A stretch of 64,000 bases of DNA from an uncultured Succinivibrionaceae bacterium (GTDB lineage Bacteria > Pseudomonadota > Gammaproteobacteria > Enterobacterales > Succinivibrionaceae): assembly GCA_944389835.1 (NCBI GenBank), contig CALXNU010000001.1, forward strand, positions 1 to 64,000, in the 5' to 3' direction. The position numbers and the translations under genes are program-made. The stretch's first letter is position 1. Every line of letters begins with the position of its first letter. Under the pieces are notes generated by a model, which searched no databases, was not told where the DNA came from, and saw only the letters and a list, made by a program, of their open reading frames with translations. This document shows, in pieces, positions 2,872 to 54,331 of the stretch.

Positions 2872-5800
2872 TTAAACTTCCCCATCTCCTTCTTTAAAAA
2901 TATCTTGCGACTCATCTAACACTATTGTTTCTTGAGACGAAGAATTTTCCTTGGAACCTTCTTGATGATTTATTCCAAGAACAGGATTTTCTACTTTTAA
3001 CTGTTCTTGAGAACTATCTCCTTTTGTCTCCACATTGCTTTCCTTTTCCTTCTTTTCAAGGTAAGCGGCTTTATCTTTAGCGTACTCTTCAACGGTTAGA
3101 TTCTGTATAGCTGATAACTCTAAATTATTATGCTTTACATCTACAAACATTTGAGCATAGGCTACGGTCTTTACAAATTGCTCAATAACATTAAGTTTAA
3201 GTAAAGGAGTAATTACCATAACCTGTAAATCAAGCATCTTAAAGACACTTAAAGTATGTCTTGCTGTATCATCAGATCCTCTACAGAAAGCCTCATCGAT
3301 CATCACAAATCTAAAGGAGCGATTATTATCTTGAACAGCTAAACGATATTGATAAGCAATCGCCGCTGCCAAAATAGTGTAGGCTAATTTTTCCTTTTGA
3401 CCGCCAGACTTACCATCAGAACCATCAAAGTATTCTTTTTCTTGATTGTCAAAATGATAAAGTTCTTCGGCACCGAAGATTAACCAATTTCTGACATCTA
3501 AAACCTTCTCACGCCAAGTCTTATCGATTGAGGCTTTACCGTCACGTCCTGCAAAACGATCTAAAAGCTTTTTAATTTCTAAAAACTTTTCACGTGCCTG
3601 TTCTTCATCAAATTCATTATCCTTAAAGGTAAATGATGTGCAGTTTTTAAGATCTTCTTGGAACTCAATTATTTCTCGATCATTACTTTTTCTTGGCTTA
3701 ATTAAGATATAAGTACCAGGATTATAATCAAGTTTAGCTAATGAAGAATTAATATCATCAATATGACGTTTAATACTCTTCTCTTCTTCCTTTAAACTAG
3801 AGGCAAGATTTCCAATACTATAAATAGTCTGATCACGAAGCTTCTGCTTAAAACTTTCAATAAATTTAGGCAGATTATCATTCTCTAAACTATCTAGCAT
3901 TTGCTTAAGTTCTTTATAAACTAACACATCTTTTGGATTAATATCCCTAGTAGCATCAGGATAACGATTCACAAAAGTAGTCGCAGCGCTAATTACATTA
4001 GATGACAGCGCAGAGATTTGAGTATTAATTTCTTGTCTTTTATTTACAATTAAGTTTGTAAAAGCACGATCAAAATCATCGCGATGCTTAAAATCAGCCT
4101 TCTTCTTTTGCGTAGCCTCTACGAAAAACTCATTTAATTTAGCTTTGTGATCTTCTCCGATCCCTTTTTCAGATGCAACTTGTCTTGCTAATTGCAACTC
4201 AGCTTTAAGCTGATTAATTTTTTCTTCAAGTTTGCCATTATCATTAATCAAGCGATCTCTTTGCAAAGAAGACTTTTCTATTTCGCCTTCAATATAATCT
4301 TTACGCTTCTTTAAGCTTTCTAATTCTTTACCACTATCACTTGCTAACAATTCCTCCTTTTGCTTGTTTAATTTTTCAATCTCAAGCTCAAATGGAGTTA
4401 AATCAATTTGTGAAAATTGTTGATACTCAAGCAAACGATTTACTGCGATTATAGAATTATTAATAACATCAATACGATTACGAGCTTCCTTACGCTTTTG
4501 CATAAGTAAAGCTAGTTCCTGCTCAGTTTTAAGTAAAAGTTTTTGCAAACTTTGGCGTTTTTCAACATTAGACCAACCTAAAACATAGCGAGTTCTATCA
4601 TCAATATTATGGCGATCATCTTTTTCATGACGACCACCTGGACTTTTGGTCATGCCCCTTGAGGTTAAAGCCATTCTTTCGCGTTTAAACTCAAGCAAAT
4701 CATCTGTACAAACGTAATTGAAGCGCCTTAACAAATTAGCAAACACAAAATCATAAAACACCCGATCGTTGTCTTTAACTTTTACTCTCTTAACAAGAGA
4801 CTTAGGTGACATAAAGCCATCAAAGCGATCTTTAGCAGGTTCGACGCGATAGTAAACTAAACGTCCTCTTAAATTACTTGAGTTTACAAACTTAACGATC
4901 TCATCATAGTATTGAGGTTTGACTAACATCGAAAGTGCAAAGCCATATAAGACACGCTCAATTGCGCCCTGCCATTTTTCTTTATAAGCATCCTCAACTT
5001 CAATAAGCTCACCTACAAAAGGTAATTCCTCTGTAGGAATATTTAAAGCCTGACATACAGTTTCTCTAATTCTTATTTGCTCTAAAGGCAAATTACTCTG
5101 TCGATGTTCTAAAGAGGCAAATTCAGCTTTAAGAGACTCATAGGTGGCTTCAAGTTTATAATAAGGCGCATCAATTGAACTGCGATCGTCCTCAAGACGT
5201 GCTTTTTCTTCTTGAAATTCTTCTTTATGGCGTGAAAGTTTAGAGCGAAGACGTGTAAATTCAGAAATTGTATTTGGAACCTCTTCACCTAAATTTGTCA
5301 CTAAATTAGCAAACAAATCTCTTACAGTTTTAATAGTCTTAAGACGTTCCTGATTTTCTTTAAGATCTCTGTCAATAGCCTCTAAGCGACCGCCACCTTT
5401 TTGATAGATACTCTCGACAAATTTATCAATCTGAACTTTGCAACTTTTAATAAAGTTTGATACTTGCTCAAGTTCTGCATCAAGATTGTCCTTTTTTAAG
5501 GTCTCAGTATCAATGATCCCTTTAATCACATCCGCCCAATAGGTTGCAAGATAGGTATGAGCTAATTTATAGCACTCATCATAAATTTTAACTTCTTCAA
5601 CTAGTAAAGCGTATTTTTCACCCGCATTTACAATTGGAGTTAAATCTATAATCTGCTCCTTAGCCTTTTCCATCTCTTCATAAATCTTAGTTAAATCATT
5701 AAATTGCTCTAAGATATTTGAAGCTTTGGCATTAAAGTCCGCAGGTGGGATCATATGTTCTTTAACAAAAGAACTTAAATTTGGTACCTGTTTAGTACCA

Positions 5801-6432
5801 ACTGCCTCACAAAAAAGCTCTAAAGCCTGATTAGTACCTATTCCTAAAGCACGTTTAAAATCAGCAACATAACTCGAATAAGTTTCATGAACGGTATAAA
5901 CTTTCGCTAAACGCTTTTTAAGAGCCTTAATATCACTTCCAAAATTACTAAAGTGATCTTTAATAGTTAAAGCCTCATCTGCTATAACACAAAAACCATC
6001 TACTTGCTTTGAATTACCTTGAGGCCACAATACTCTAGCTAAAGTAACCGAAGCACTTCTTTTTTGATCTGTAAAAACCGCTAAAATTACTGTGAAATGG
6101 TTTTTCTTTCTCAAACATAAATATTCAGTGTCATCTCCAACACCGGTTTTTTTATAAAAACCTACCACATAAGTATAAAGAGTTCTCTCACCTGCTGAGG
6201 CACCTGCAGCCTCATTGTAATGAGGATTTCTATAAGGTGAAAGCAAGGCTAATAAAGCATCAGCTGCCGTAGATTTACCAGAACCATTTTCACCTGTTAA
6301 TAAAGTATTTTGACAATTTAAATTAACCGTCCAAATGCGATTGTGAAAAGTTCCCCAATTATATAGTTCTAAATGATCTAATCTAAAACCTTCAGGAAGA
6401 TTGATATTTTCAATAAAATTTGTCTCAGTCAC
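2872..6432 (-). CDS. jetC: JetC/MksB-like SMC ATPase
   Basis: Large SMC-like ATPase of the JetABC (Wadjet) / MksFEB family, expected to form a DNA-binding, loop-extruding complex with the two preceding genes. 1186 residues. The N-terminal head has Walker A GENGSGKST (47-55). Long charged coiled coils occupy roughly 240-480 and 640-960, with a hinge-like globular segment between them. The C-terminal head has a signature-like SGGQKEKLAY (about 1009) and Walker B MIDEAF (1044-1049). A Ser/Glu-rich, probably disordered tail of about 60 residues follows. It starts 3 nt after the jetB stop, so it is translationally linked. No JetD nuclease gene follows; the next gene is gyrB. MukB is an alternative, but the partner genes are JetA/JetB-type, not MukF/MukE. 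Confidence 0.88.
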   Translation of the reverse strand: MTETNFIENINLPEGFRLDHLELYNWGTFHNRIWTVNLNCQNTLLTGENGSGKSTAADALLALLSPYRNPHYNEAAGASAGERTLYTYVVGFYKKTGVGDDTEYLCLRKKNHFTVILAVFTDQKRSASVTLARVLWPQGNSKQVDGFCVIADEALTIKDHFSNFGSDIKALKKRLAKVYTVHETYSSYVADFKRALGIGTNQALELFCEAVGTKQVPNLSSFVKEHMIPPADFNAKASNILEQFNDLTKIYEEMEKAKEQIIDLTPIVNAGEKYALLVEEVKIYDECYKLAHTYLATYWADVIKGIIDTETLKKDNLDAELEQVSNFIKSCKVQIDKFVESIYQKGGGRLEAIDRDLKENQERLKTIKTVRDLFANLVTNLGEEVPNTISEFTRLRSKLSRHKEEFQEEKARLEDDRSSIDAPYYKLEATYESLKAEFASLEHRQSNLPLEQIRIRETVCQALNIPTEELPFVGELIEVEDAYKEKWQGAIERVLYGFALSMLVKPQYYDEIVKFVNSSNLRGRLVYYRVEPAKDRFDGFMSPKSLVKRVKVKDNDRVFYDFVFANLLRRFNYVCTDDLLEFKRERMALTSRGMTKSPGGRHEKDDRHNIDDRTRYVLGWSNVEKRQSLQKLLLKTEQELALLMQKRKEARNRIDVINNSIIAVNRLLEYQQFSQIDLTPFELEIEKLNKQKEELLASDSGKELESLKKRKDYIEGEIEKSSLQRDRLINDNGKLEEKINQLKAELQLARQVASEKGIGEDHKAKLNEFFVEATQKKKADFKHRDDFDRAFTNLIVNKRQEINTQISALSSNVISAATTFVNRYPDATRDINPKDVLVYKELKQMLDSLENDNLPKFIESFKQKLRDQTIYSIGNLASSLKEEEKSIKRHIDDINSSLAKLDYNPGTYILIKPRKSNDREIIEFQEDLKNCTSFTFKDNEFDEEQAREKFLEIKKLLDRFAGRDGKASIDKTWREKVLDVRNWLIFGAEELYHFDNQEKEYFDGSDGKSGGQKEKLAYTILAAAIAYQYRLAVQDNNRSFRFVMIDEAFCRGSDDTARHTLSVFKMLDLQVMVITPLLKLNVIEQFVKTVAYAQMFVDVKHNNLELSAIQNLTVEEYAKDKAAYLEKKEKESNVETKGDSSQEQLKVENPVLGINHQEGSKENSSSQETIVLDESQDIFKEGDGEV

Positions 6433-6435
6433 GAT

Positions 6436-7161
6436 TTAATCCTCAGTGGTAGTATTATCTTGATTAAGTTTTAATAAATATTGCTTTAAAAGCTCATCAA
6501 TACTATTAATATTTTTAGCATCAAAGAAAGCTCTAATAATTCTTTTAACCTCGTAACGGCAAGTTCTAACTTCTTTTTGTTGCTTATCTAAAGGCCATAA
6601 AAAACCAAGTTTTACAGCTTGATTTATAGAAGTAACTAATTTTTCATCAATTTTAGCTGAATTAGTACCTTCATTAATAAAGGTCTTTACATACTCAATA
6701 ATCTCAGCTCCACTTAACACTAACTTAATACTATCTGAGCTACTATCAAACTCGATTAATCGCTTTCTTAACATGATCAATAAAAAGCAAGTAAAAAAGC
6801 TTAATGCAATAGTTCTTGAAAGTTTTGGTGGGCGATGGATCATATCATCTGGATATTCTTCTTCACGATAAGATCTCAAATATGCATAGCCTTCTGCGTC
6901 ATCAATTTCAAGAGCAAGACCGATAGTTGCTAAATACTCTCTTACATCTCGCTCTACTTTAAGTAAATACGCAAAAGTTTTAGCATTATTTTGCTTATAG
7001 AGCACACCTTTTAAAAGGGTAGCACTTACATAGCCTACAAGATAGCTACGATCTTCATTAAAATCTTCTTCCTTTTCTAAAGACTCATTGTTTTGATTTT
7101 CAAGCTCTAAATTTTTCTCTTCATTTAGAGTATTTTCATCTAAAGGTAAACTCTCAGTCAT
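6436..7161 (-). CDS. jetB: JetB/MksE-like subunit (DUF4194 type)
   Basis: kite-type winged-helix subunit that bridges the kleisin JetA and the ATPase JetC. About 241 residues. After an acidic N-terminal stretch of about 40 residues it shows DUF4194 features: VREYLATIGLALEID, EGYAYLRSY, a leucine-rich helix SFFTCFLLIMLRKRL, and the late motif AVKLGFLWPL followed by YEVKRIIRAFFDA. I prefer ATG 7161, which begins 2 nt after the jetA stop; a TTG at 7197 would add 12 residues and overlap jetA. The tight packing jetA-jetB-jetC supports an obligate complex. Confidence 0.87.
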   Translation of the reverse strand: MTESLPLDENTLNEEKNLELENQNNESLEKEEDFNEDRSYLVGYVSATLLKGVLYKQNNAKTFAYLLKVERDVREYLATIGLALEIDDAEGYAYLRSYREEEYPDDMIHRPPKLSRTIALSFFTCFLLIMLRKRLIEFDSSSDSIKLVLSGAEIIEYVKTFINEGTNSAKIDEKLVTSINQAVKLGFLWPLDKQQKEVRTCRYEVKRIIRAFFDAKNINSIDELLKQYLLKLNQDNTTTED

Positions 7162-7162
7162 C

Positions 7163-8632
7163 TTACTCTTCTCTATATTTAATAACTGTTTTTTCAATTA
7201 AAGCCTTACGAATTACTTTTTCACCAAGAGCGTTTTCGCTCTCCCAAGTAAATTCCTCAAATTCATCATCTGAAGTTTCTACTTTAAAATGTAACCTTAA
7301 GACTTCAAAGTAATTTAAAATCTCTTCAAGGCCGTATTCTAAAGGATGTAAATCTATAACTTCTTTTAAAGTAATCTCTTTTTTACCATTTAAGGTACTT
7401 AAAAGATTACTAAAAAGTAATTCCCTGTCCACAGATCTTTGCGCATAGAGCTTATCAAGACCATCCTTACCAATTTCGCCTTCCTCAATATCTGAATCTA
7501 AAATCATCTTTTCTTTTAATTCAAATAAAGAGCGATCCATGGGAATTTGTATATCAAAAATAGGTAACTCAATCTCAAAGAAGCGATCATTTAACTCTTT
7601 ACCTATTTTTTCTAAACATACTGCCTGCTCTTGAATGGATTTAATCGATCTTAAAATCGTTCTATTTTCTAAATAAATCTTATCATCGACAAAATGCCTA
7701 ATTCTCTTATTAATGGTACCAATGATGTCATGAATTCTTTCATCAGCTTTAAGCCATTCACGATAAATAAAACGTAAATTAGGATCAAAGCCCATTTCCT
7801 TAACTTCAGGCAACTCATATAAATGATCGATCATATTAGAGAGCATCTCATTTTGCTTATATTGAGTTAAGAGTCTTGAAAAAGCTAGAGCAGATTTACC
7901 TTGATCTGTATTATCAATAAAATCAGATTGTCCTAAAATCTCATCAATAAGCTTGCCCTTTGACTCATCCCATAACTCAATTTTTTGTCTAATATCGCGA
8001 TTTAATTCCTTAAAATTATATTCAACTTGTCTAAAATCAGATAATAAAGTTCTTGCTTGTTGCTCAAATTGTTGAAAACGATCTTTTACCTGAACAGGCT
8101 CTAAAATATCAAATATTCCTTCTTCGGCAAGCTTAATTTTTTCTTCAAGTTTTGCTTTTTGATCTTTTAAATCTTGAAGATATTTATCAGGATCTTGATT
8201 TGTCCCAACGTTTAATTGCTTAACTAAATCAAAAATTTGCAATAAACGCGATTCCGTGCCGACAAACTCATAGGTTTCAAGAGAATTTAGAAAATCTAAA
8301 GCTTTTTGCGTGGCTGGAGTTATATCATAATAGCATTCATTACTATCTGCCTTAAGATAAGCTCTACTTAAAAAACCGCACTGATCTGAAGACCATTTTA
8401 AAAGGTAATCTAATGGATCTTGTTCAAATTTATCCCCATATTGATCTTCAATAGTAAAAATTAAATCACGAAGTCTTTCAACTAAATCTGTTTCTGAAGC
8501 ATAGGTGATACCTCGCTTAATAAAAGCGACATTTAAAAAGCTAATTATTAAAGGAGCCTGATCAGCACACAATAATTTCCATGCACTATTTTCAAGGCGC
8601 AGTGATTTAACTGATTGATAATCAAATTCCAC
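7163..8632 (-). CDS. jetA: JetA/MksF-like kleisin (DUF3375 type)
   Basis: Kleisin subunit of a JetABC/MksFEB complex. 489 residues, a normal length for DUF3375 proteins. Family features are visible in order: ENSAWKLLCADQAPLIISFL near the N-terminus, the segment LVERLRDLIFTIEDQYG, and FVGTESRLLQIFDLVKQL near 130. These are followed by a coiled-coil middle (about 150-330) and a C-terminal winged-helix-like part. It begins about 20 nt after the recF stop on the same strand, so recF and jetA are probably cotranscribed. The gene order A-B-C is that of Wadjet loci, but here it is embedded in the replication-initiator cluster. Confidence 0.9.
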   Translation of the reverse strand: MEFDYQSVKSLRLENSAWKLLCADQAPLIISFLNVAFIKRGITYASETDLVERLRDLIFTIEDQYGDKFEQDPLDYLLKWSSDQCGFLSRAYLKADSNECYYDITPATQKALDFLNSLETYEFVGTESRLLQIFDLVKQLNVGTNQDPDKYLQDLKDQKAKLEEKIKLAEEGIFDILEPVQVKDRFQQFEQQARTLLSDFRQVEYNFKELNRDIRQKIELWDESKGKLIDEILGQSDFIDNTDQGKSALAFSRLLTQYKQNEMLSNMIDHLYELPEVKEMGFDPNLRFIYREWLKADERIHDIIGTINKRIRHFVDDKIYLENRTILRSIKSIQEQAVCLEKIGKELNDRFFEIELPIFDIQIPMDRSLFELKEKMILDSDIEEGEIGKDGLDKLYAQRSVDRELLFSNLLSTLNGKKEITLKEVIDLHPLEYGLEEILNYFEVLRLHFKVETSDDEFEEFTWESENALGEKVIRKALIEKTVIKYREE

Positions 8633-10902: not shown

Positions 10903-12792
10903 TTATTCTTTCTTCAACGACAGTGTAAGTTTATTATACTTTGAAGCAATCTCCGGCTCTTGATCGATGCGATTTTTAATCCTTTTTATTGCTTCATGGA
11001 CAGATGAGTGATCTTTATTAAAAGCTCTGCCAATATCAGATAATGATAAAGAAGGGATCAAATCACGAGCAAGCGCCATAGACATAGAACGCGCAAGAGA
11101 TACAGTCTTTTTCTTTTCAGCAGATTCCATAGAAGCTACGGTCACTTCAAACTCACGTGACACACGCTCTTTAATCGTATCAATTGTACAAACTTGATTT
11201 GAAGCATTAACTAAATTAGCTAAGATCTTCTTTGCTTCTTCAACTGTAAGTTCAGCTTCACTATTTAGTTTATGTGAATTTAAAGTTTTAATTGCGCCTT
11301 CAAGCTCACGAATATTAGAGCGCACATTCGTTGCAATATAATTAATAACATCCTCAGAGAGATTAATCTTCATCTCCTCACACTTACTAATTGTAATTGC
11401 AGTACGCGTTTCCACACCAGGAGGTACTACTTCACAACAAACACCAGATCCAAAACGCGTAGTAAGACGGGCATTAAAACCATTTAAATTACCAGGTGGC
11501 ACATCAGAGGCCAAAATCAATTGACGATTTGGCTTATCAATAAACTCAGCGATAATATCAAAGAAGGCATCACGTGCTTTTGGACCTTTAATGAAATTTT
11601 GAATATCATCGACAATGAACACATCATGTTCAGTATAAAGGTCCTGAAAATGCACTTGTTGATCATCAAAAGGTGACTTTTTAATGCTCGCCATTGATTC
11701 AACATAATGACGAATAAACTCTTCAGCTCTAGTATAAATAATAGAAATATCAGAGTTTAATTGCATAATGCGATTGGCAATTGCAAATAAAAGATGCGTT
11801 TTACCAAGGCCTGATGCACCATAGATATATAAAGGATTGTAATTTGAAGATCCAGGATTAGTCGCAACGGCAATAGCTGTAGCAAAAAGAGTCTTATTTT
11901 CAGGATCTATAACGTAATTTTCAAAAGTCTTATTGGGATTTATTGGATTGCGTTTCCTAAAGTTTGGAAACATCTTCTCAATTGCCGCAAGCTTTGAGCT
12001 CTTAGCTCTTGGGGTTGGATTATGTGCTTTAATCTCAGGACGATTGGCATTATTAAAAGCTGCATTATCATCTTGATAATCCTGAAGGCTTGCTTGTTGT
12101 TGCTGTTGCAACATTTGCTGTTGAATTTGAGCTGCCATTGAAGGCATATTAAAACCCATCGCATAATTTTGCATCATCTGCAATTGTTGAGGATTTAAAT
12201 TAGGGTTAAAGCCCATCGCCTGTTGTTGCTCAGGAGTTAATTGTGCAAAACCATTTAAAAGATGGTTTTGATACATAAAATTAGGATTAAAGGCAGGCAT
12301 ACCCATCATTTGTGGGATCATACCCTGGTTTTGCATAGCAACTTGACTTTGCAAATCATGACCTTGATCAGTAAAATTTCCATTTGATCCAAGATTTGCA
12401 TTAGGCAAATTCTGTACTTGAGCCTGAAAAGGACCATTATTCTGTGAAAAGGTAGAGTTTGGATTAAAATTTTGATTCTGGTTTTGCGTCTGATTTGTCA
12501 TCGCTGGAGCTTGAGCACTGCGAGTGTTATCAGCACTGTTTACCTGAACCTCAACTCCAAATGAATAACCAGGATTTCCTAATAGATTTTCAACCTCTGA
12601 GTAGAGTCTTGCAGCATAATTTACAAAAATGCCCCAAAAATAAGAATTATTGCAAGTGAAGACAATCTTACGGCCTTCAATATTCATAACTACTTGCTGA
12701 CGAAATAATTCTAAATTTTTACGCTCTTCTTCATTATCTGTAGTCTTGAGAACTTCAGATATAGCGGTATTCCAAAGCTGAACGTAGTCCAT
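10903..12792 (-). CDS. dnaA: Chromosomal replication initiator DnaA
   Basis: AAA+ initiator that binds DnaA boxes and melts oriC. 629 residues against 467 in E. coli. Domain I spans about 1-90. Domain II (about 95-265) is a very long Gln/Asn/Met-rich low-complexity linker. The AAA+ domain has Walker A GASGLGKTHLL (about 324) and sensor segments, with VFIVDDIQNF as Walker B. Domain IV carries the DNA-binding motif NKDHSSVHEAIKRI, where E. coli has GRDHTTVLHACRKI. The start at ATG 12792 is preceded by a purine-rich AGAGAAAGAGAG ribosome site. It is divergent from rpmH across a region with box-like repeats and is probably autoregulated through them. Confidence 0.97.
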   Translation of the reverse strand: MDYVQLWNTAISEVLKTTDNEEERKNLELFRQQVVMNIEGRKIVFTCNNSYFWGIFVNYAARLYSEVENLLGNPGYSFGVEVQVNSADNTRSAQAPAMTNQTQNQNQNFNPNSTFSQNNGPFQAQVQNLPNANLGSNGNFTDQGHDLQSQVAMQNQGMIPQMMGMPAFNPNFMYQNHLLNGFAQLTPEQQQAMGFNPNLNPQQLQMMQNYAMGFNMPSMAAQIQQQMLQQQQQASLQDYQDDNAAFNNANRPEIKAHNPTPRAKSSKLAAIEKMFPNFRKRNPINPNKTFENYVIDPENKTLFATAIAVATNPGSSNYNPLYIYGASGLGKTHLLFAIANRIMQLNSDISIIYTRAEEFIRHYVESMASIKKSPFDDQQVHFQDLYTEHDVFIVDDIQNFIKGPKARDAFFDIIAEFIDKPNRQLILASDVPPGNLNGFNARLTTRFGSGVCCEVVPPGVETRTAITISKCEEMKINLSEDVINYIATNVRSNIRELEGAIKTLNSHKLNSEAELTVEEAKKILANLVNASNQVCTIDTIKERVSREFEVTVASMESAEKKKTVSLARSMSMALARDLIPSLSLSDIGRAFNKDHSSVHEAIKRIKNRIDQEPEIASKYNKLTLSLKKE

Positions 12793-13376
12793 AGCTCTCT
12801 TTCTCTAGTGATAAACTCTCAATTAAATGCCTAAAATTTTTATTGTTTTTCCTAAATCTTAAATTTTTATCTTTTAGAACTTAGGAGGCGAGCAGATCAT
12901 AACATAAAAAAAATTATCGATCTGTAACTTTTCCCAAAGATTTTTAAAATTTCCCACAGGATAACTTACTGATTAAACAAATTTTCTTTAAATTCAATTT
13001 TAAACCCACCAAAATCTAACAGCAAACATTTAACAATTGTGGGAAAATTTCCCACAGGATAAAGTATGACTCTGTGAGCTTTAGAGTATTTAAACACACA
13101 TACTTAATATAGCAATAATTAAAATTTATAAAAATACTATTAATAAAAAGATTATAATAGATATTAATTTTTGATTTTCAATTGATTATTTATATAAAGA
13201 TGGCATTTTTCTAAGCTTCTTTAAGATTGAAACAATTTTATTGAGTAAAAAATAGCAAAATAATGAAAAAATCTTTACTCAAGATGTTGACGTAAATCAA
13301 ATTCTGCGTGTAGAATTAGCGGTTCAATGAGCAGCGTCGTTTCACGCTGTGTTGCAATGGAAAACTTTTTGTAAAA
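12793..13376. other. dnaA-rpmH intergenic region: box-like repeats and candidate origin
   Basis: No gene is seen. An exact 19-nt direct repeat occurs at 12946-12964 and 13044-13062; each copy contains TTTCCCACA. The second copy also forms a 19-bp inverted repeat, TGTGGGAAAATTTCCCACA (13038-13056), so three exact boxes lie within about 110 bp next to dnaA. From about 13090 to 13270 the DNA is extremely AT-rich. In many bacteria dnaA-rpmH is oriC, and TTTCCCACA resembles TTATCCACA with two changes. It is a candidate origin or a dnaA autoregulatory region, and presumably also holds the dnaA and rpmH promoters. Confidence 0.55.
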
Positions 13377-28899: not shown

Positions 28900-29432
28900 T
28901 AAAAACTCCTTAAACTAAAAGCTGAAAACACAAGCATTGTACTCTAAAAAGTCTGTCCTAAGGCCTCCCTTTAAGGAATTCCCCACAGGTTTAAATTTTC
29001 CCACAAGGTTTATTTTGTTTAAATATCAATAAATTAACAACAATTCTTCAGCTTATAAATAAAGATCCCACAGCTTTTCCCAACACCTAAAATCAGCACT
29101 TAAGCCTAAGTTTCCCACAAGAGTGTGTTAAAAACTTGTGTAAATAAATTTAGAAAGACTTGGGATCATGTTAGGTAAAATTTAGGTAGAATAAGTATAA
29201 TTTTTAGTCTTTTGATAAAACTTAAGTTATTAACAGCAATTTCTATACAAAATAAAGTTAAAAATACAAAGTTAAATCTCAATTACTTTTTGAAAAATAT
29301 GATCTTTTGCAAGATCTAACAAAAAATTCCATGCTAATAAAGATAAAGAAGATCATATATAAATATAGTATATATAATTAATATTAATTATTATGAGCAA
29401 AGCGTTTTACTAAGGGAGTTAAAATTATAGAC
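28900..29432. other. Origin-like region: box cluster, IHF site, AT-rich tract
   Basis: No gene is seen in these 533 bp. From 28979 to 29119 there are TTCCCCACA (28979), exact TTTCCCACA at 28997 and 29111, GATCCCACA (29064) and TTTCCCAAC (29076), all on the plus strand. A perfect IHF consensus TATCAATAAATTA (29024-29036) sits between the second and third. An AT-rich stretch follows, extreme at 29341-29393, with GATC sites at 29301, 29312 and 29351. Ordered boxes, IHF site and AT-rich tract resemble enterobacterial oriC, which also lies near mnmG. Function is inferred. Confidence 0.6.
29024..29036 (+). promoter_or_regulatory. IHF consensus site
   Basis: TATCAATAAATTA fits the IHF consensus WATCAANNNNTTR exactly. 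It lies between initiator-box-like repeats, as the IHF site of E. coli oriC does. In AT-rich DNA such matches also occur by chance. Confidence 0.45.
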
Positions 29433-30527: not shown

Positions 30528-31027
30528 ATAAGCCAATCCCACAACATTTAAAATACATCCCACAGCTTAAATTTAAGTTAATCTCTGTATTTATAAGCGT
30601 TTTTTAAAATTTAATGTTAAATGTTATAAGAGAGTGTTTAAAACTATCCAAAAGAGCTTTAGAAGAATTTTACTTAAGATCTGTATAAAAACTATGCTTT
30701 TGATAAAATCGCACTTCTCTACACCTAAAAAACACTAAATTAAAGCTAAGCTAACATAGAAAAACTTAAAATTATTTCTTAATTTTTAAGGAAATTTTTT
30801 TAAACCCACAAAAAGTGAGCTCCTAATAAGAATAAAGATAATTAAATATATAAATATAAAATATTTAAATTTATTCTTTTAATATAGAGTTGTTAAATGT
30901 TAAGAAGAGCCTATTTAAACTTTAAGCATGAAGCTTTGATTTAAGCTTAGGATCTTGTAAAGAAAGTGTTAAAATAGCGCACCTTTATTAATCTACTTGA
31001 GCCTAATTTATTTCGAGCGTTTTTCAT
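30528..31027. other. Intergenic region upstream of mnmG with further boxes
   Basis: 500 bp without a gene. AATCCCACA (30535), CATCCCACA (30556) and AAACCCACA (30802) recall the boxes on the other side of the preceding gene. A very AT-rich tract spans about 30831-30890. Near the mnmG end, TGTTAAAAT (30967-30975) could be an extended -10 promoter element. No Shine-Dalgarno is obvious before the mnmG ATG. Confidence 0.5.
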
Positions 31028-32917
31028 ATGAATCAGCATAGATCTTTTGACACAATCGTAGTAGGTGCAGGACACGCTGGCATTGAAGCTGCTGCAGCTG
31101 CTGCAAGAATGGGGATGAAAACTCTTCTTTTAACCCATAACCTTGAAACTGTAGGTGAAATGTCATGTAATCCAGCCTTCGGCGGTATTGGCAAAGGTCA
31201 CCTTTTAAGAGAAATTGATGCTATGGGTGGTGTTTGCCCACAGGCAATTGATCGTGCTGGTATTCAATTTAGAACATTAAATTCCTCTAAGGGTCCTGCC
31301 GTAAGAGCCACTCGTGCTCAAACGGATAGACACCTTTACAAAGAGGTGATGAGAAAAACTTTAGCCTCTTATCCAAATTTGACCTTATTCCAACAACCTT
31401 GTACTAAATTGCTTTTTGATGGTAATACTTTATGTGGTGTTGATACCGCAGCTAATATTGAGTTTTATGCACCAACGGTAATTATTTGTGCAGGTACCTT
31501 CTTAAATGGTTTAATTCATATTGGTTTAAATCATTATCAAGGTGGAAGAGCGGGCGATCCTGCCTCAATAGGTCTTGCAGAAAACTTAAAAGATTTAGGT
31601 TTAAAAGTAGGTCGTTTAAAAACAGGCACTCCAGCGCGCATTGTAGCCTCAAGTATTGATTACTCAAAGATGCAATCTCAAGCACCAGAGTCACCTTTGC
31701 CTTGTTTTTCATATCTTGATGATGAAAGCGTACTACCTACTCAAGTGACCTGTCATATTACAAGAACTAATGAACTTACTCATGAGATTATTAGATCAGG
31801 TCTTGATAGAAGTCCTCTATATTCTGGCGTAATTAAATCAACAGGTCCTCGTTATTGTCCTTCAATTGAAGATAAGATTGTGCGCTATCCGCATCGTACA
31901 TCTCATCAAATTTTTATCGAACCTGAAGGTTTAACTTCACCTTTAGTGTATCCAAATGGTATTTCAACTTCTCTTCCTTATGATATTCAAGAGAAATTTA
32001 TTCACTCTATCGAAGGTTTGGAAAATGCCATTATCGCCCGCCCAGGCTATGCGATTGAATATGATTTCTATGATCCGCGTGAACTTAGTGTTTCCATGCA
32101 ATCCAAGAAAATTAAAGGTTTATTCTTAGCAGGTCAAATTAACGGTACTACAGGTTATGAAGAGGCGGCAGCTCAAGGACTTTTAGCAGGTATTAATGCC
32201 GCTTTGTATGTTAAAGGTCAAGATCCTTGGTTCCCATCTAGAAATACTGCTTATATGGGCGTGATGATGGACGATCTTTGCACTTTAGGTACCCGCGAGC
32301 CTTATCGTATGTTTACCTCTCGTGCTGAGTATCGTTTAATGTTACGTGAGGATAATGCTGACTTAAGACTTACGCCTAAAGCTCATGATTTAGGTTTAAT
32401 TAGTGATGAAAGATGGCGTCGCTTTGAAAATAAAGCCAATGAAATTGAAAAAGAAAAGGCACGTTTAAGAGCTACTTTAATTAAGCCTTCATCAAAGGAA
32501 GGTAAAGCTTTATCTGCAAATCTTTTAAAGACTCCATTATCTAAAGAACAATCTTTAGAGGAGATTTTGCGCCGTCCTGAAGTTACTCTAAAGCCTATGC
32601 TTGAGTGTTGTGAACTTGAAGCAATTGCCAAAGATCCTCAAGCTTTAGAGCAGGTTGAAATTCAAGTACGTTATCAAGGCTATTTATCTCACGAAGAAGA
32701 AGAGATTAAAAAGCGCGAGCAAAATGAAAAGACCATGTTGCCTTTAGATTTTGATTATCGCTCCATAAGTGCGTTATCAAATGAAGTGGCTCAAAAATTA
32801 AATGAATTTAAACCTGAAACTTTAGGTATGGCCTCAAGAATTAGTGGTGTAACTCCAGCTGCTATTTCAATTTTATTAGTGCATTTAAAGAAATTAGGAC
32901 GTTTGGGAAAAAATTAA
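31028..32917 (+). CDS. mnmG: tRNA wobble-uridine modification protein MnmG
   Basis: FAD/NADH-binding partner of MnmE in 5-carboxymethylaminomethyl modification of tRNA U34. 629 residues, standard length. FAD motif [12 protein letters not shown] (about 12-23), GGIGKGHL, and [16 protein letters not shown] near 375 are family signatures. rsmG follows immediately (TAA then ATG), as in enterobacteria. Confidence 0.98.
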
Positions 32918-45833: not shown

Positions 45834-47870
45834 ATGAAAAAAACACCTTTTGCTTTAGCTTTAATGGCTATTTTAGGTGTACAAACTTCTTTGGCCCAAA
45901 CTTTTCAAAGCGAAGAGGTGGTAATTAGTGCCTCGCGTATCGAAGAAGATCTCTTTCAAGTAACTAAAAGTGTAAGTGTAGCAACACAAGAGAGCTTAAG
46001 GGAAAGTGGCCAAGACACTTTACCTTCAATGCTTGAGGATGAAACTTCAGTTGGTTTAGTAAGTGATGGCACTCCTGGTGTTAAAAGAGTCTCTTTACGT
46101 TCAGAAAGCTCTTCTCGAACTTTACTTTTAGTTGATGGGCAAAGAATTGATGATGCTAAAACTAAATCAGGTGCGCCTTTTTTAGTAAATCCTTTCTTTA
46201 TCGATCGTGTTGAAATTTTACGTGGATCATCCTCGGTATTATACGGTTCAGATGCTTTAGGCGGTATTGTTCAAGTTTTCACTAAAGACTATAGTGAGAA
46301 GCCTTTTTCATTTGAAGTAGGTGGAAATTTTAATAGTTCAGGTAATGGTTTTGCAGAATATTTAAATGCAAGTGGCAGTCTTGATAAATTCCACTATAAA
46401 GCCTCAGTCTTTGGTACAGAGATGGGAGATGTCTATCTTTCAGATCGAGAAAGACTTGATAATACCTCTTATCGTCAAAAAGGTGGAAATGTAGGTTTAG
46501 CCTATGATATTAACTCTAAATTTACTTTAGAGCTTATACATGAGTATTTTGATCTAGATGCTAATACCGCAAGTGATAGTACAGATCAAGATTATGCAAA
46601 TTTTAAAGCGCATATTCCACAATGGAAAAGAGAAAAAACATCTTTAAATTTTGCTTTTAAAGATTTAAATGAGTTAGTTGAAAAACTTAATTTCTCATTT
46701 TATCTTCAAGAAAATGATAAAGATTTTAACTCTCAAGTCTCAGCGCGCGGTCCTTATGTTTATGCCTTAAATGAACAAGACACTAAAGGTGCGACAGGGC
46801 AAATTGATTTGGCACTATCGCCTATGTTTTATTTAATCTCAGGTTTTGAGGTAAGACGTGATGAGTTAAAAAGCGATAGTGGGGCGCAATTTGGGGAGAA
46901 TATGGGCCCTGTCGTAAGCTCAATGCGCCTTAATATTGAAGATCGAGATTTAAAACAAGACACTTACGCTTTATATTCTCTTTTAGAGACTTATCTTACT
47001 GACTCTTTAACCTTAGAGACGGGACTTCGTTACACTTATGTGAAAACAGACAGTGGTAATAGCGCTTTAGATGTAGGTCCTATGAAAATGCCTTTATCCC
47101 AAAATCAAGACAGCTCAGATAATTTTTTAGTAGGCTCGGTAGGTCTTAATTGGGCTTTAAATGAGGAAAATGCTTTAAGAGCATCTTTTTCTCAAGGTTA
47201 TAGATCACCTAATCTTCAAGAAATGTATCTGACCACCTTCACCGGTGAAGTACAGCTTGGCAATCCTGATTTAAAGGAGGAGCGTTCAAATAGTTTTGAG
47301 CTTGGTTTTAATCATCAAGGTGAACAATTAGATTTAGATGTAAATCTTTTTTATACCAAAGCCAAAGACTATATTGATACTTATCAAGTCTTTGAAGGTG
47401 CCATGGATATTTACTCCTATCGGAATATTTCTAAGGCCATCTCCTATGGTGTGGAGCTTGACACTAAGCTTTATTTAGATCCTTTTACTGCCTATAGTAA
47501 TCTTACTGTGATGCGTCGCAAATATGAGACTGCAACAGAGGAAAGCTATGATACGCTAACTCCTCTTTTAAAAGGCAGACTTGGACTTAGATATGATGAT
47601 GTGATGTTTAATCAAAACTATCATGTAGATTTATTTAGCCGTTTTGCAACTAAAGCTGACAATGATAACTTAGATGGTGCCTCTTATTTTGATGACAGCC
47701 ATCTTGCAGGTTATATGACTTTAAATTTAGGCTTTGGTATGGACTTTTTCAATGAAAGCTTAAAAGTCTATGGTAGTTTTGAAAATATCTTAGATAAAGA
47801 TTATCGTACCTCAGAGCTTATCTCAGAGCCTGGAAGATTCTTTTCCTTAGGCTTTTCTTATACTTATTAA
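45834..47870 (+). CDS. TonB-dependent outer-membrane receptor
   Basis: Energy-coupled outer-membrane importer. About 678 residues from ATG 45834 (AGGA site), giving the signal peptide MKKTPFALALMAILGVQTSLA. The TonB box/plug start is EEVVISASRIEED; the plug includes RVEILRGSSSVLYGSDALGGIVQVF. A 22-strand barrel follows, ending with a terminal aromatic YTY. It resembles heme/siderophore-type receptors, but the substrate is not evident. It converges tail to tail with tonB, overlapping it by 4 nt, and uses the TonB system encoded opposite. No Fur box was seen upstream; it may be read through from ftsY. Confidence 0.92.
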   Translation: MKKTPFALALMAILGVQTSLAQTFQSEEVVISASRIEEDLFQVTKSVSVATQESLRESGQDTLPSMLEDETSVGLVSDGTPGVKRVSLRSESSSRTLLLVDGQRIDDAKTKSGAPFLVNPFFIDRVEILRGSSSVLYGSDALGGIVQVFTKDYSEKPFSFEVGGNFNSSGNGFAEYLNASGSLDKFHYKASVFGTEMGDVYLSDRERLDNTSYRQKGGNVGLAYDINSKFTLELIHEYFDLDANTASDSTDQDYANFKAHIPQWKREKTSLNFAFKDLNELVEKLNFSFYLQENDKDFNSQVSARGPYVYALNEQDTKGATGQIDLALSPMFYLISGFEVRRDELKSDSGAQFGENMGPVVSSMRLNIEDRDLKQDTYALYSLLETYLTDSLTLETGLRYTYVKTDSGNSALDVGPMKMPLSQNQDSSDNFLVGSVGLNWALNEENALRASFSQGYRSPNLQEMYLTTFTGEVQLGNPDLKEERSNSFELGFNHQGEQLDLDVNLFYTKAKDYIDTYQVFEGAMDIYSYRNISKAISYGVELDTKLYLDPFTAYSNLTVMRRKYETATEESYDTLTPLLKGRLGLRYDDVMFNQNYHVDLFSRFATKADNDNLDGASYFDDSHLAGYMTLNLGFGMDFFNESLKVYGSFENILDKDYRTSELISEPGRFFSLGFSYTY

Positions 47871-52478: not shown

Positions 52479-52571
52479 ATGATTTATTTAGGCTGGATCT
52501 TAGGTTTAGCTCTTTCCATTGGCTTTTGTGTTGTTGTCGCTTATATCATTGAAGCGTGGGAAGATTATTAA
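52479..52571 (+). CDS. cydX: Cytochrome bd small subunit CydX
   Basis: Single-span 30-residue subunit that stabilises the oxidase hemes. The start MIYLGWILGL and the end AWEDY match CydX, which in E. coli begins MWYFAWILG. It has AGGAGG 7 nt before the ATG, lies 9 nt after cydB and overlaps the cydD start by 16 nt. Confidence 0.95.
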   Translation: MIYLGWILGLALSIGFCVVVAYIIEAWEDY

Positions 52572-54331
52572 AGCAAAAAGACCGTGCTCAAACTTTTTTA
52601 TCCAAACTTCAAAGCACGGTTAAATCTTTGACAGCTCTGCAAAGTCTTTTAGCCTTTGCAGATGCTTTAGTATTAGTTAATGCTTATTATTTAATCGTAC
52701 AAACAGTCGCAAAGATTGTTATTTTTAATCAACGAACTGATTTTTCAAACCTTTATTTAGCAATAGCTTTAATTTTAGTACGTCTGCCTTTAGGCTTTTT
52801 AAGCTCTATTTTAAATAGCAAAATTTCCTATAAAGTTGAAAGCTCTCTTCGTGAGGAGATTTTAGCTAAGATTATTGAAAAAGGTGCTTTTGCTAAAAGT
52901 TATTCACCCTCTTTAGTCTCTTTAGCTAATGAAGCGGTAGATAGCATTGTGCCTTTTTTTACTGCCTATCTTAAAGGCAAAAAGAAAGCTATCGCCTTTC
53001 CTTTAGTTATGGGAGTTGCTGTTTTTTTAGCCTCTCCATTAAGTGCTTTAGTATTAGTTGTGATAGCACCTCTAATTCCAATTTTTATGATTTTAATTGG
53101 CAAGGTTACACAAAAGGTAAATCAAAGACAGCTTGAAAGTTTAACTAGACTTTCAGAGCGCTTTTATCAAAGCTTTTTAAATTTGCCTTTAATTAGGCTT
53201 TATGCGCTTGAGTTAAAACAAAGAGCGGTTATCAAACGCTCTACTAAAAGATGGCGGGTTGAAACCTTACAGATCTTATATGTAGCTTTTTTATCGTCAG
53301 CAGCTCTTGAGTTTTTCTCCACAGTTGGAGTGGCGCTTTGTGCTATTTTACTTGGCTTTGCAATTTATGAAAATGGTTTCCCCTATGCTTCAGCTTTGTT
53401 TGTACTATTTTGTGTGCCTGAGTTTTTTGCCCCATTAAGGATGTTAGGTTCTTTCTATCATCAAAAACAAAGAGCCGTTGCCGCAGCCCTTAAAATTTGT
53501 GAGATTTTAGAGTTGGAAAAACAAGAGTCTTGTGGGGAAAGTTGTAAAAAGAGACAAGAATCCACGATCGATTACCCACAGTTTCCCACAGGTTTTTGTG
53601 AAAATAACAGCTTTCCCACAAAACACGACAGTTTTTCACAACAAGATCCCACAGATTTGATCAAATCCCACAGGTTTTCCCACAATCTACAGGTGGCAAA
53701 AGAGCTTATGGTGGATAATTTAACTGTAGCTTACCCTGATGGGAGATTGGGACTTAAAAATTTAAGTCTTACTATCCCAACTCACAAAATTTGTGCGCTA
53801 AAAGGCCCTTCAGGTGTGGGAAAAACCACCTTACTTTTAACTTTATTTAATCAACTTCAAGTACAAGAAGGTAAGATTTATTTGGGAGATGAGGACTATT
53901 TTTCGTTGTTTTCTGAAAAGAGTGTGGCATTTATTCCGCAAAATCCACATCTTTTTTATGGCACTTTAAGAGATAACTTAACCTTATGGCAAAAAGATTT
54001 AAGCGATGAAGAATTAATAAAACGCTTAAAAGACATTGGTGCTTATCAAGTTGTAGCTTTGTTTAAAGAAGGTCTTAATAAACGTGTAGGTGAATCACAA
54101 AGGTTAATCTCAGGTGGACAAATGAGATTAATAGCTCTTGCGCGCACGATGTTAAAAGACAGTGAACTTATTTTATTAGATGAGCCTTCAGCATCTTTAG
54201 ATGAAGATACTGAGCGAGACTTTTTAGAGAAGATGCGTAAGTTTTATCAAGGCAAAACTGTGATTATGGCCTCCCATCGTGCTTTAACTTTAGATTATTG
54301 TGATGAGGTATTAAACCTTGAAAGTAAGTGA
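52556..54331 (+). CDS. cydD: Thiol-exporting ABC transporter subunit CydD, with expanded linker
   Basis: Half of the CydDC exporter of glutathione/cysteine, needed for cytochrome bd assembly. 591 residues: six membrane segments (about 25-310), then a linker, then an ATPase with GPSGVGKTT (about 420), LISGGQMRLIALARTM and LILLDEPSASLD. It starts at GTG 52556, inside cydX. The linker (about 322-380) is about 35-40 residues longer than in E. coli and consists of polar residues with FPT and SH motifs. It is encoded by a cluster of TTTCCCACA-like boxes, reported separately. Confidence 0.95.
   Translation: MGRLLKQKDRAQTFLSKLQSTVKSLTALQSLLAFADALVLVNAYYLIVQTVAKIVIFNQRTDFSNLYLAIALILVRLPLGFLSSILNSKISYKVESSLREEILAKIIEKGAFAKSYSPSLVSLANEAVDSIVPFFTAYLKGKKKAIAFPLVMGVAVFLASPLSALVLVVIAPLIPIFMILIGKVTQKVNQRQLESLTRLSERFYQSFLNLPLIRLYALELKQRAVIKRSTKRWRVETLQILYVAFLSSAALEFFSTVGVALCAILLGFAIYENGFPYASALFVLFCVPEFFAPLRMLGSFYHQKQRAVAAALKICEILELEKQESCGESCKKRQESTIDYPQFPTGFCENNSFPTKHDSFSQQDPTDLIKSHRFSHNLQVAKELMVDNLTVAYPDGRLGLKNLSLTIPTHKICALKGPSGVGKTTLLLTLFNQLQVQEGKIYLGDEDYFSLFSEKSVAFIPQNPHLFYGTLRDNLTLWQKDLSDEELIKRLKDIGAYQVVALFKEGLNKRVGESQRLISGGQMRLIALARTMLKDSELILLDEPSASLDEDTERDFLEKMRKFYQGKTVIMASHRALTLDYCDEVLNLESK
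53531..53684. repeat. Cluster of TTTCCCACA-type boxes inside cydD
   Basis: Within 154 bp: exact TTTCCCACA at 53582, 53612 and 53676; TTACCCACA (53572); TTTTTCACA (53632); GATCCCACA (53645); AATCCCACA (53664); and on the minus strand TTCCCCACA (53531-53539) and TTTTCACAA (53596-53604). Boxes occur in at least two reading frames, encoding FPT, DPT and SHR/FSH, so the repetition is at DNA level. They match the box type found near dnaA and mnmG. Candidate DnaA-binding (titration or control) locus. Confidence 0.7.

Follow-up and report, generated by a model that had tools for sequence, protein, structure and literature searches.

The 64-kb stretch of DNA analysed here (the window) comes from a gut bacterium of the Succinivibrionaceae, whose closest relatives among named genomes are MAGs of Succinivibrionaceae and Anaerobiospirillum. 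It carries dnaA, mnmG and cydD. The last of these codes for the thiol reductant ABC exporter subunit CydD and hosts a dense cluster of short boxes in the region encoding the CydD linker (Table 1). A first-pass annotation of the sequence had named the host gene as cydD, which agrees with a TIGR02857 match above the cut-off, and had counted at least nine boxes within 154 bp. Nine are indeed found: seven have a CCCACA core, including three exact copies of TTTCCCACA, and two are weaker TTTCACA boxes, at 53632 (+) and 53597 (-). Orientation is mixed (among the strong boxes, the first is on the opposite strand to the rest), and some boxes are closely paired, with a 3-bp gap at 53664/53676 and a 1-bp gap at 53572/53582. 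The usual DnaA box, TTATCCACA, has no occurrence in the 64-kb window.

CCCACA appears 36 times across the 64 kb, and the presence of seven copies inside 154 bp of cydD corresponds to a Poisson probability of ~1.5e-12, or ~6e-10 when corrected for window number. When the sequence is scored with a position weight matrix (PWM) built solely from other genera of the same clade, the linker is the densest site of matches in the window (7 in 160 bp, versus 4 each at the origin and at dnaA). The next densest box sites are the clusters upstream of dnaA and on the mnmG side, consistent with the earlier observation that the box is also found beside these two genes. Thus, the linker holds several boxes that match the species' own oriC and dnaA box.

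Table 1. Box clusters, individual boxes and landmark genes. Positions are those of the window unless a contig of this genome (G000) is given.
Feature	Position	Strand	Details
dnaA, diverged DNA-binding domain IV (KDHSSV signature)	10903..12792	-	TIGR00362 341.9 bits, just below cut-off 343.9; PF08299 67.9 bits
Box cluster upstream of dnaA	12930..13056		Adjoins AT-richest DNA of the window (13070-13240)
mnmG-side cluster (TTCCCCACA, TTTCCCACA, GATCCCACA, TTTCCCACA)	28979..29119		Probable oriC
Two more boxes (AATCCCACA, CATCCCACA) upstream of mnmG	30535..30564	+	
mnmG, landmark by probable oriC	31028..32917	+	Family-wide match; congener G001 84% identical
cydD, cluster host	52556..54331	+	TIGR02857 439.9 bits, cut-off 435
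Box cluster, CydD linker	53531..53684		Codes for residues 318-369 in the translation starting at 52580
Box TTCCCCACA	53531..53539	-	PWM 13.9 bits
Box TTACCCACA	53572..53580	+	PWM 15.1 bits
Box TTTCCCACA, exact	53582..53590	+	PWM 18.2 bits
Weak box ATTTTCACA	53597..53605	-	Sequence
Box TTTCCCACA, exact	53612..53620	+	PWM 17.3 bits
Weak box TTTTTCACA	53632..53640	+	Sequence; identical site and letters in G001
Box GATCCCACA	53645..53653	+	Aligned G001 counterpart TTTCCCACC
Box AATCCCACA	53664..53672	+	Aligned G001 counterpart CAACCCACC
Box TTTCCCACA, exact	53676..53684	+	Aligned G001 counterpart TTTCCCACA
Cluster in C-terminal part of AsmA-like ORF	G000:C4:26348-26474 (L150)		Named by reading the sequence; no NCBIfam match
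Cluster at C-terminal end of unidentified ORF, before methyltransferase-like gene	G000:C8:4658-4714 (L154)		
Cluster upstream of murJ	G000:C5 about 12510-12527		
Cluster downstream of deaD	G000:C87:121-260		
Cluster downstream of zupT	G000:C132:344-362		

The proposal that DNA rather than protein is being repeated had been based on boxes in different reading frames, and all three frames prove to be occupied. Synonymous recoding of the linker with the codon usage of the window yields a mean of 0.16 CCCACA copies compared with the 7 observed, and none of 20000 recoded sequences reaches 7. The linker also uses the proline codon CCC (7/325 elsewhere). These findings support selection of the boxes as DNA and not as peptide. 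As the annotation had stated, the linker is lengthened, being longer than in the other family members aligned. The cluster falls inside the longest segment of the modelled protein with pLDDT below 50 (residues 313-372), in keeping with its supposed position in a part of CydD that tolerates change. This low score suggests that the linker is disordered, although pLDDT obtained with a 12-row alignment is no proof of disorder.

The cluster is retained in G001, the sole congener compared, so that conservation is judged from two species. The same linker of G001 carries three exact copies of TTTCCCACA and one TTTCCCACC, and 0/20000 recodings reach this count. The two CydD proteins share 54% identity and the two congeners differ strongly in GC content (in the stretches compared, about 55% versus 37%), so there has been time for silent sites to diverge. 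Nevertheless, four boxes align at identical spacings of 13, 19 and 12 bp, with letters that partly differ. The upstream boxes of the two species neither align nor agree in strand, a pattern suggestive of box turnover inside a cluster that is itself retained. Residues identical between the two proteins share their codon in 11 of 18 cases in the linker and in 101 of 291 elsewhere (P 0.024), a result that is poor support by itself. Among 15 other family genomes, none has even one strong box in its cydD. The cluster is thus limited to the two congeners and is not a family trait, and the site is dispensable in general.

The two other box clusters in the window mark candidate origins, and the separation of 24-40 kb originally given between them and the cydD cluster is correct. 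Both lie beside DNA with 79-83% AT. The mnmG-side cluster is the likelier oriC, since the GC-skew minimum of the window lies near 31-32 kb, the boxes enclose an IHF consensus at 29024, and the DNA that follows at 29130-29430 is 79% AT. However, DNA beside the dnaA cluster is richer in AT than any other in the window, and the origin may be bipartite. The cydD cluster is located 24.5 kb from the mnmG-side cluster. Its own AT content (59%) is below that of the whole gene (65%) and no AT-rich element adjoins the boxes, so that a second origin at this position is rejected. Elsewhere, the window encodes, between gyrB and recF, homologues of JetA, JetB and JetC (2872-8632, reverse strand), which resemble the Wadjet/MksBEF-like condensins.

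The PWM is built on 103 boxes collected in other genera at the origin, murJ and zupT, and its consensus is TTTCCCACA(A/G), that is, TTTCCCACAR. Because collection of the boxes required a CCCAC core, the independent part of this consensus is limited to the TTT, the final A and the R. Among 70 same-strand pairs in the clade, 28 have a start-to-start distance of 11-12 bp, where 4.5 are expected. This spacing equals the 2-3 bp gap of the double DnaA boxes of Escherichia coli, which is preferred by DnaA (PMC11317965). Pairs of TCCCACA in one genome (G046) were excluded because they belong to a different repeat, CTGCAGCTCCCACA.

The DnaA protein of this clade is diverged. Its Pfam Bac_DnaA_C scores are 59-73 bits, versus 90-108 bits for other family members and 107-118 bits for the rest of the order. 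In E. coli, DnaA contacts bases through R399, P423 and positions 432-435 and 438-439 (PMC5043019). At the corresponding positions, members of the clade have S, T, A or N in place of P423 and K in place of R432, and R399 is also replaced by K in this genus. T436, which neighbours contact positions, has become S, and the helix-turn-helix has gained one residue before it and lost one within. The changes at P423 and T436 are the informative ones, since R432K and T435S are also present in some canonical DnaA proteins. Among 20 scored family genomes, those with the diverged DnaA contain 58 box pairs versus 7 in the control, whereas those with a canonical DnaA contain 4 versus 9. The excess is uneven within the clade, with 24 of the 58 pairs in a single genome (G010) and none in several members (G014, G016, G018). 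We infer from these sequence comparisons that DnaA and its box changed together. In two genomes, DnaA lies in very long putative open frames, of 2894 codons (L339, G015:C2) and 1238 codons (L340, G002:C8), in which an enormous Ala-rich stretch precedes the AAA+ domain.

Given that the clade motif recurs at the origin and at dnaA, that the double-box spacing is shared, and that DnaA is altered where it contacts DNA, the cydD boxes very probably represent DnaA boxes whose specificity has shifted, and binding by DnaA is predicted. A search of the available literature for TTTCCCACA together with DnaA found no paper, and one on the oriC of Succinivibrionaceae found nothing relevant.

Pattern searches of the 2.41-Mb genome identify 32 copies of TTTCCCACA and 24 of the reversed pattern. 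Eleven of the 32 are inside the 64-kb window (P ~3e-10). This scarcity and clustering rule out a motif that is abundant in general, and the even genome-wide frequency that had been named as counter-evidence is not what is seen. Likewise, the whole genome has 9 pairs of TCCCACA lying within 31 bp, against 0 in the reversed control, and 4 of the 9 are in cydD. Two of the other clusters in this genome, on contigs C4 (in the AsmA-like ORF) and C8, are also embedded in coding sequence, and CCCACA exceeds synonymous recoding in both.

The cydD cluster is a real, conserved, DnaA-box-like feature at the DNA level within a coding sequence, and DnaA titration is its likeliest role. We assign a probability of roughly 0.6 to a model in which it serves as an origin-proximal titration site made of lineage-specific boxes (TTTCCCACA instead of TTATCCACA). 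The boxes would be accommodated in a disordered CydD linker, where nearly any sequence might be tolerated, and DnaA would bind some of them as pairs separated by 2-3 bp. At a distance of ~24 kb from oriC, the cluster would be duplicated very soon after initiation, such that each firing would create a new sink, lower the amount of free DnaA and help to block re-initiation. There is precedent for such effects, as a surplus of DnaA boxes near oriC is reported to be a trait linked to titration in E. coli (PMC12371093), and deletion of all six clusters outside oriC in Bacillus subtilis causes early initiation, consistent with titration (PMC5295017). Loss of Hda as a cause for titration is rejected on the basis of a match at the cut-off (195.4 bits versus 194.8). 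With Hda probably present, the main control could be something other than titration. The main doubt about the model concerns transcription, which can prevent DnaA from occupying sites within ORFs, given that the ORF-internal rplB site of B. subtilis is bound by DnaA in vitro but is unoccupied in vivo (PMC4447404).

The cluster might instead modulate DnaA actively rather than serve as a passive sink, either by promoting ATP hydrolysis as datA does or by promoting ADP release as DARS sites do. The E. coli datA locus is likewise a dense group of DnaA boxes away from oriC, with about five boxes (PMC5295017), and both would be predicted to act negatively on initiation. The dense, mixed-orientation boxes of cydD, with the first inverted, invite this comparison, as does the ability of DARS1 to work without a protein factor (PMC4585315). 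However, datA requires an IHF site between its boxes (PMC5835720), whereas the strict IHF consensus WATCAANNNNTTR does not occur in the cydD cluster (the nearest copies are at 47382 and 55701, and a degenerate site may be present). In addition, datA and the DARS sites are described as non-coding loci. DARS1 and DARS2 are likewise chromosomal clusters of DnaA boxes that act on DnaA, but they reactivate it from a three-box core, and DARS2 needs Fis and IHF. Membership in the datA class is therefore unsupported, and active modulation of either type is unlikely. Of the original proposal of a coding-embedded titration or reactivation site comparable to datA or DARS, the part that stands is a cluster of what are very probably DnaA boxes, selected as DNA and kept in a congener, and the likeness to datA is not supported. 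Plain titration, as proposed for the B. subtilis clusters, would fit better than a datA or DARS function.

Less probable still are two readings that differ in what the boxes do or in what binds them. E. coli DnaA is also a transcription regulator (PMC11317965), and cydD is directly followed by cydC and a sigma-factor-like ORF. DnaA bound to the boxes might thus act, for example, as a roadblock in the cydDC operon that ties expression of these genes to the level of DnaA. The cluster is mid-gene, however, about 630 bp ahead of cydC, and cydD of other family genera lacks it, which makes this role improbable. To a similarly small degree, the boxes could be sites for another protein common to dnaA and oriC, such as a nucleoid organiser or another replication factor. 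The motif does differ from TTATCCACA at two positions, and DnaA is proposed as the binder from sequence comparisons. Against this, the motif at dnaA and the origin, the double-box spacing and the altered DnaA contact residues all coincide in the same clade. Least credible is that the cluster arose by chance or by expansion of low-complexity sequence, or that selection on the protein favours a peptide repeat (FPT, SH). In favour of this are the freedom of the linker to vary, the recurrence of these short peptides and the conservation of FSQQxPTDL...H.FSH in both congeners. However, the use of three frames and the failure of synonymous recoding to reach the observed count in either species lead us to reject a peptide repeat, and the scarce, clustered distribution of the box in the genome argues against chance.

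Titration by the cydD cluster would have its closest parallels in the oriC-proximal DnaA-box clusters of B. subtilis, where several clusters likewise lie outside oriC (PMC5295017). The strongest of those regions are intergenic (PMC4447404), whereas the densest cluster here is coding and uses TTTCCCACA. In E. coli, boxes likewise accumulate towards the origin and are proposed to titrate DnaA (PMC12371093), but this excess is a broad gradient seen in 10-centisome windows, in contrast to the one compact cluster in cydD. The datA locus differs further in driving ATP hydrolysis and in its dependence on IHF, compared with a cluster 24 kb from the origin that carries no IHF consensus. In the literature that we found, every chromosomal site with a proven role in DnaA control is non-coding. 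If the titration model is true, a dense and conserved ORF-internal cluster would mean that the sequence freedom of a disordered protein linker can be used to encode replication control. Synonymous substitutions can eliminate the cydD boxes, which offers a clean genetic test.

A wider and more tentative reading, to which we give slightly less than even odds, is that the clade shifted its DnaA-box pair to TTTCCCACA and carries distributed clusters of DnaA boxes at the origin, dnaA, zupT/deaD, murJ and, in this genus, cydD. The densest of these would then reside in coding DNA, and the linker might be kept, and possibly lengthened, for its DNA. The diverged DnaA and its TTTCCCACA boxes would constitute a natural experiment on the joint change of an essential initiator and its genome-wide sites. 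Box clusters are found upstream of murJ in G003, G004, G008, G013, G018, G020 and G031, with weaker examples in G000 and G001, and downstream of zupT in G001, G004, G024, G029 and G034. Because zupT and murJ are adjacent in some genomes, these clusters may descend from one ancestral DnaA-control locus. Clusters at the murJ and zupT positions (the latter next to deaD) recur over genera with the diverged DnaA (L155, L159, L160, L273, L274, L283). The region upstream of mnmG in G010 holds 27 copies of CCCACA in 1.5 kb. The same genome also carries an intergenic iteron-like array (G010:C137:7190-7805, L156) with at least 13 TCCCACA boxes at a period of 33-34 bp.
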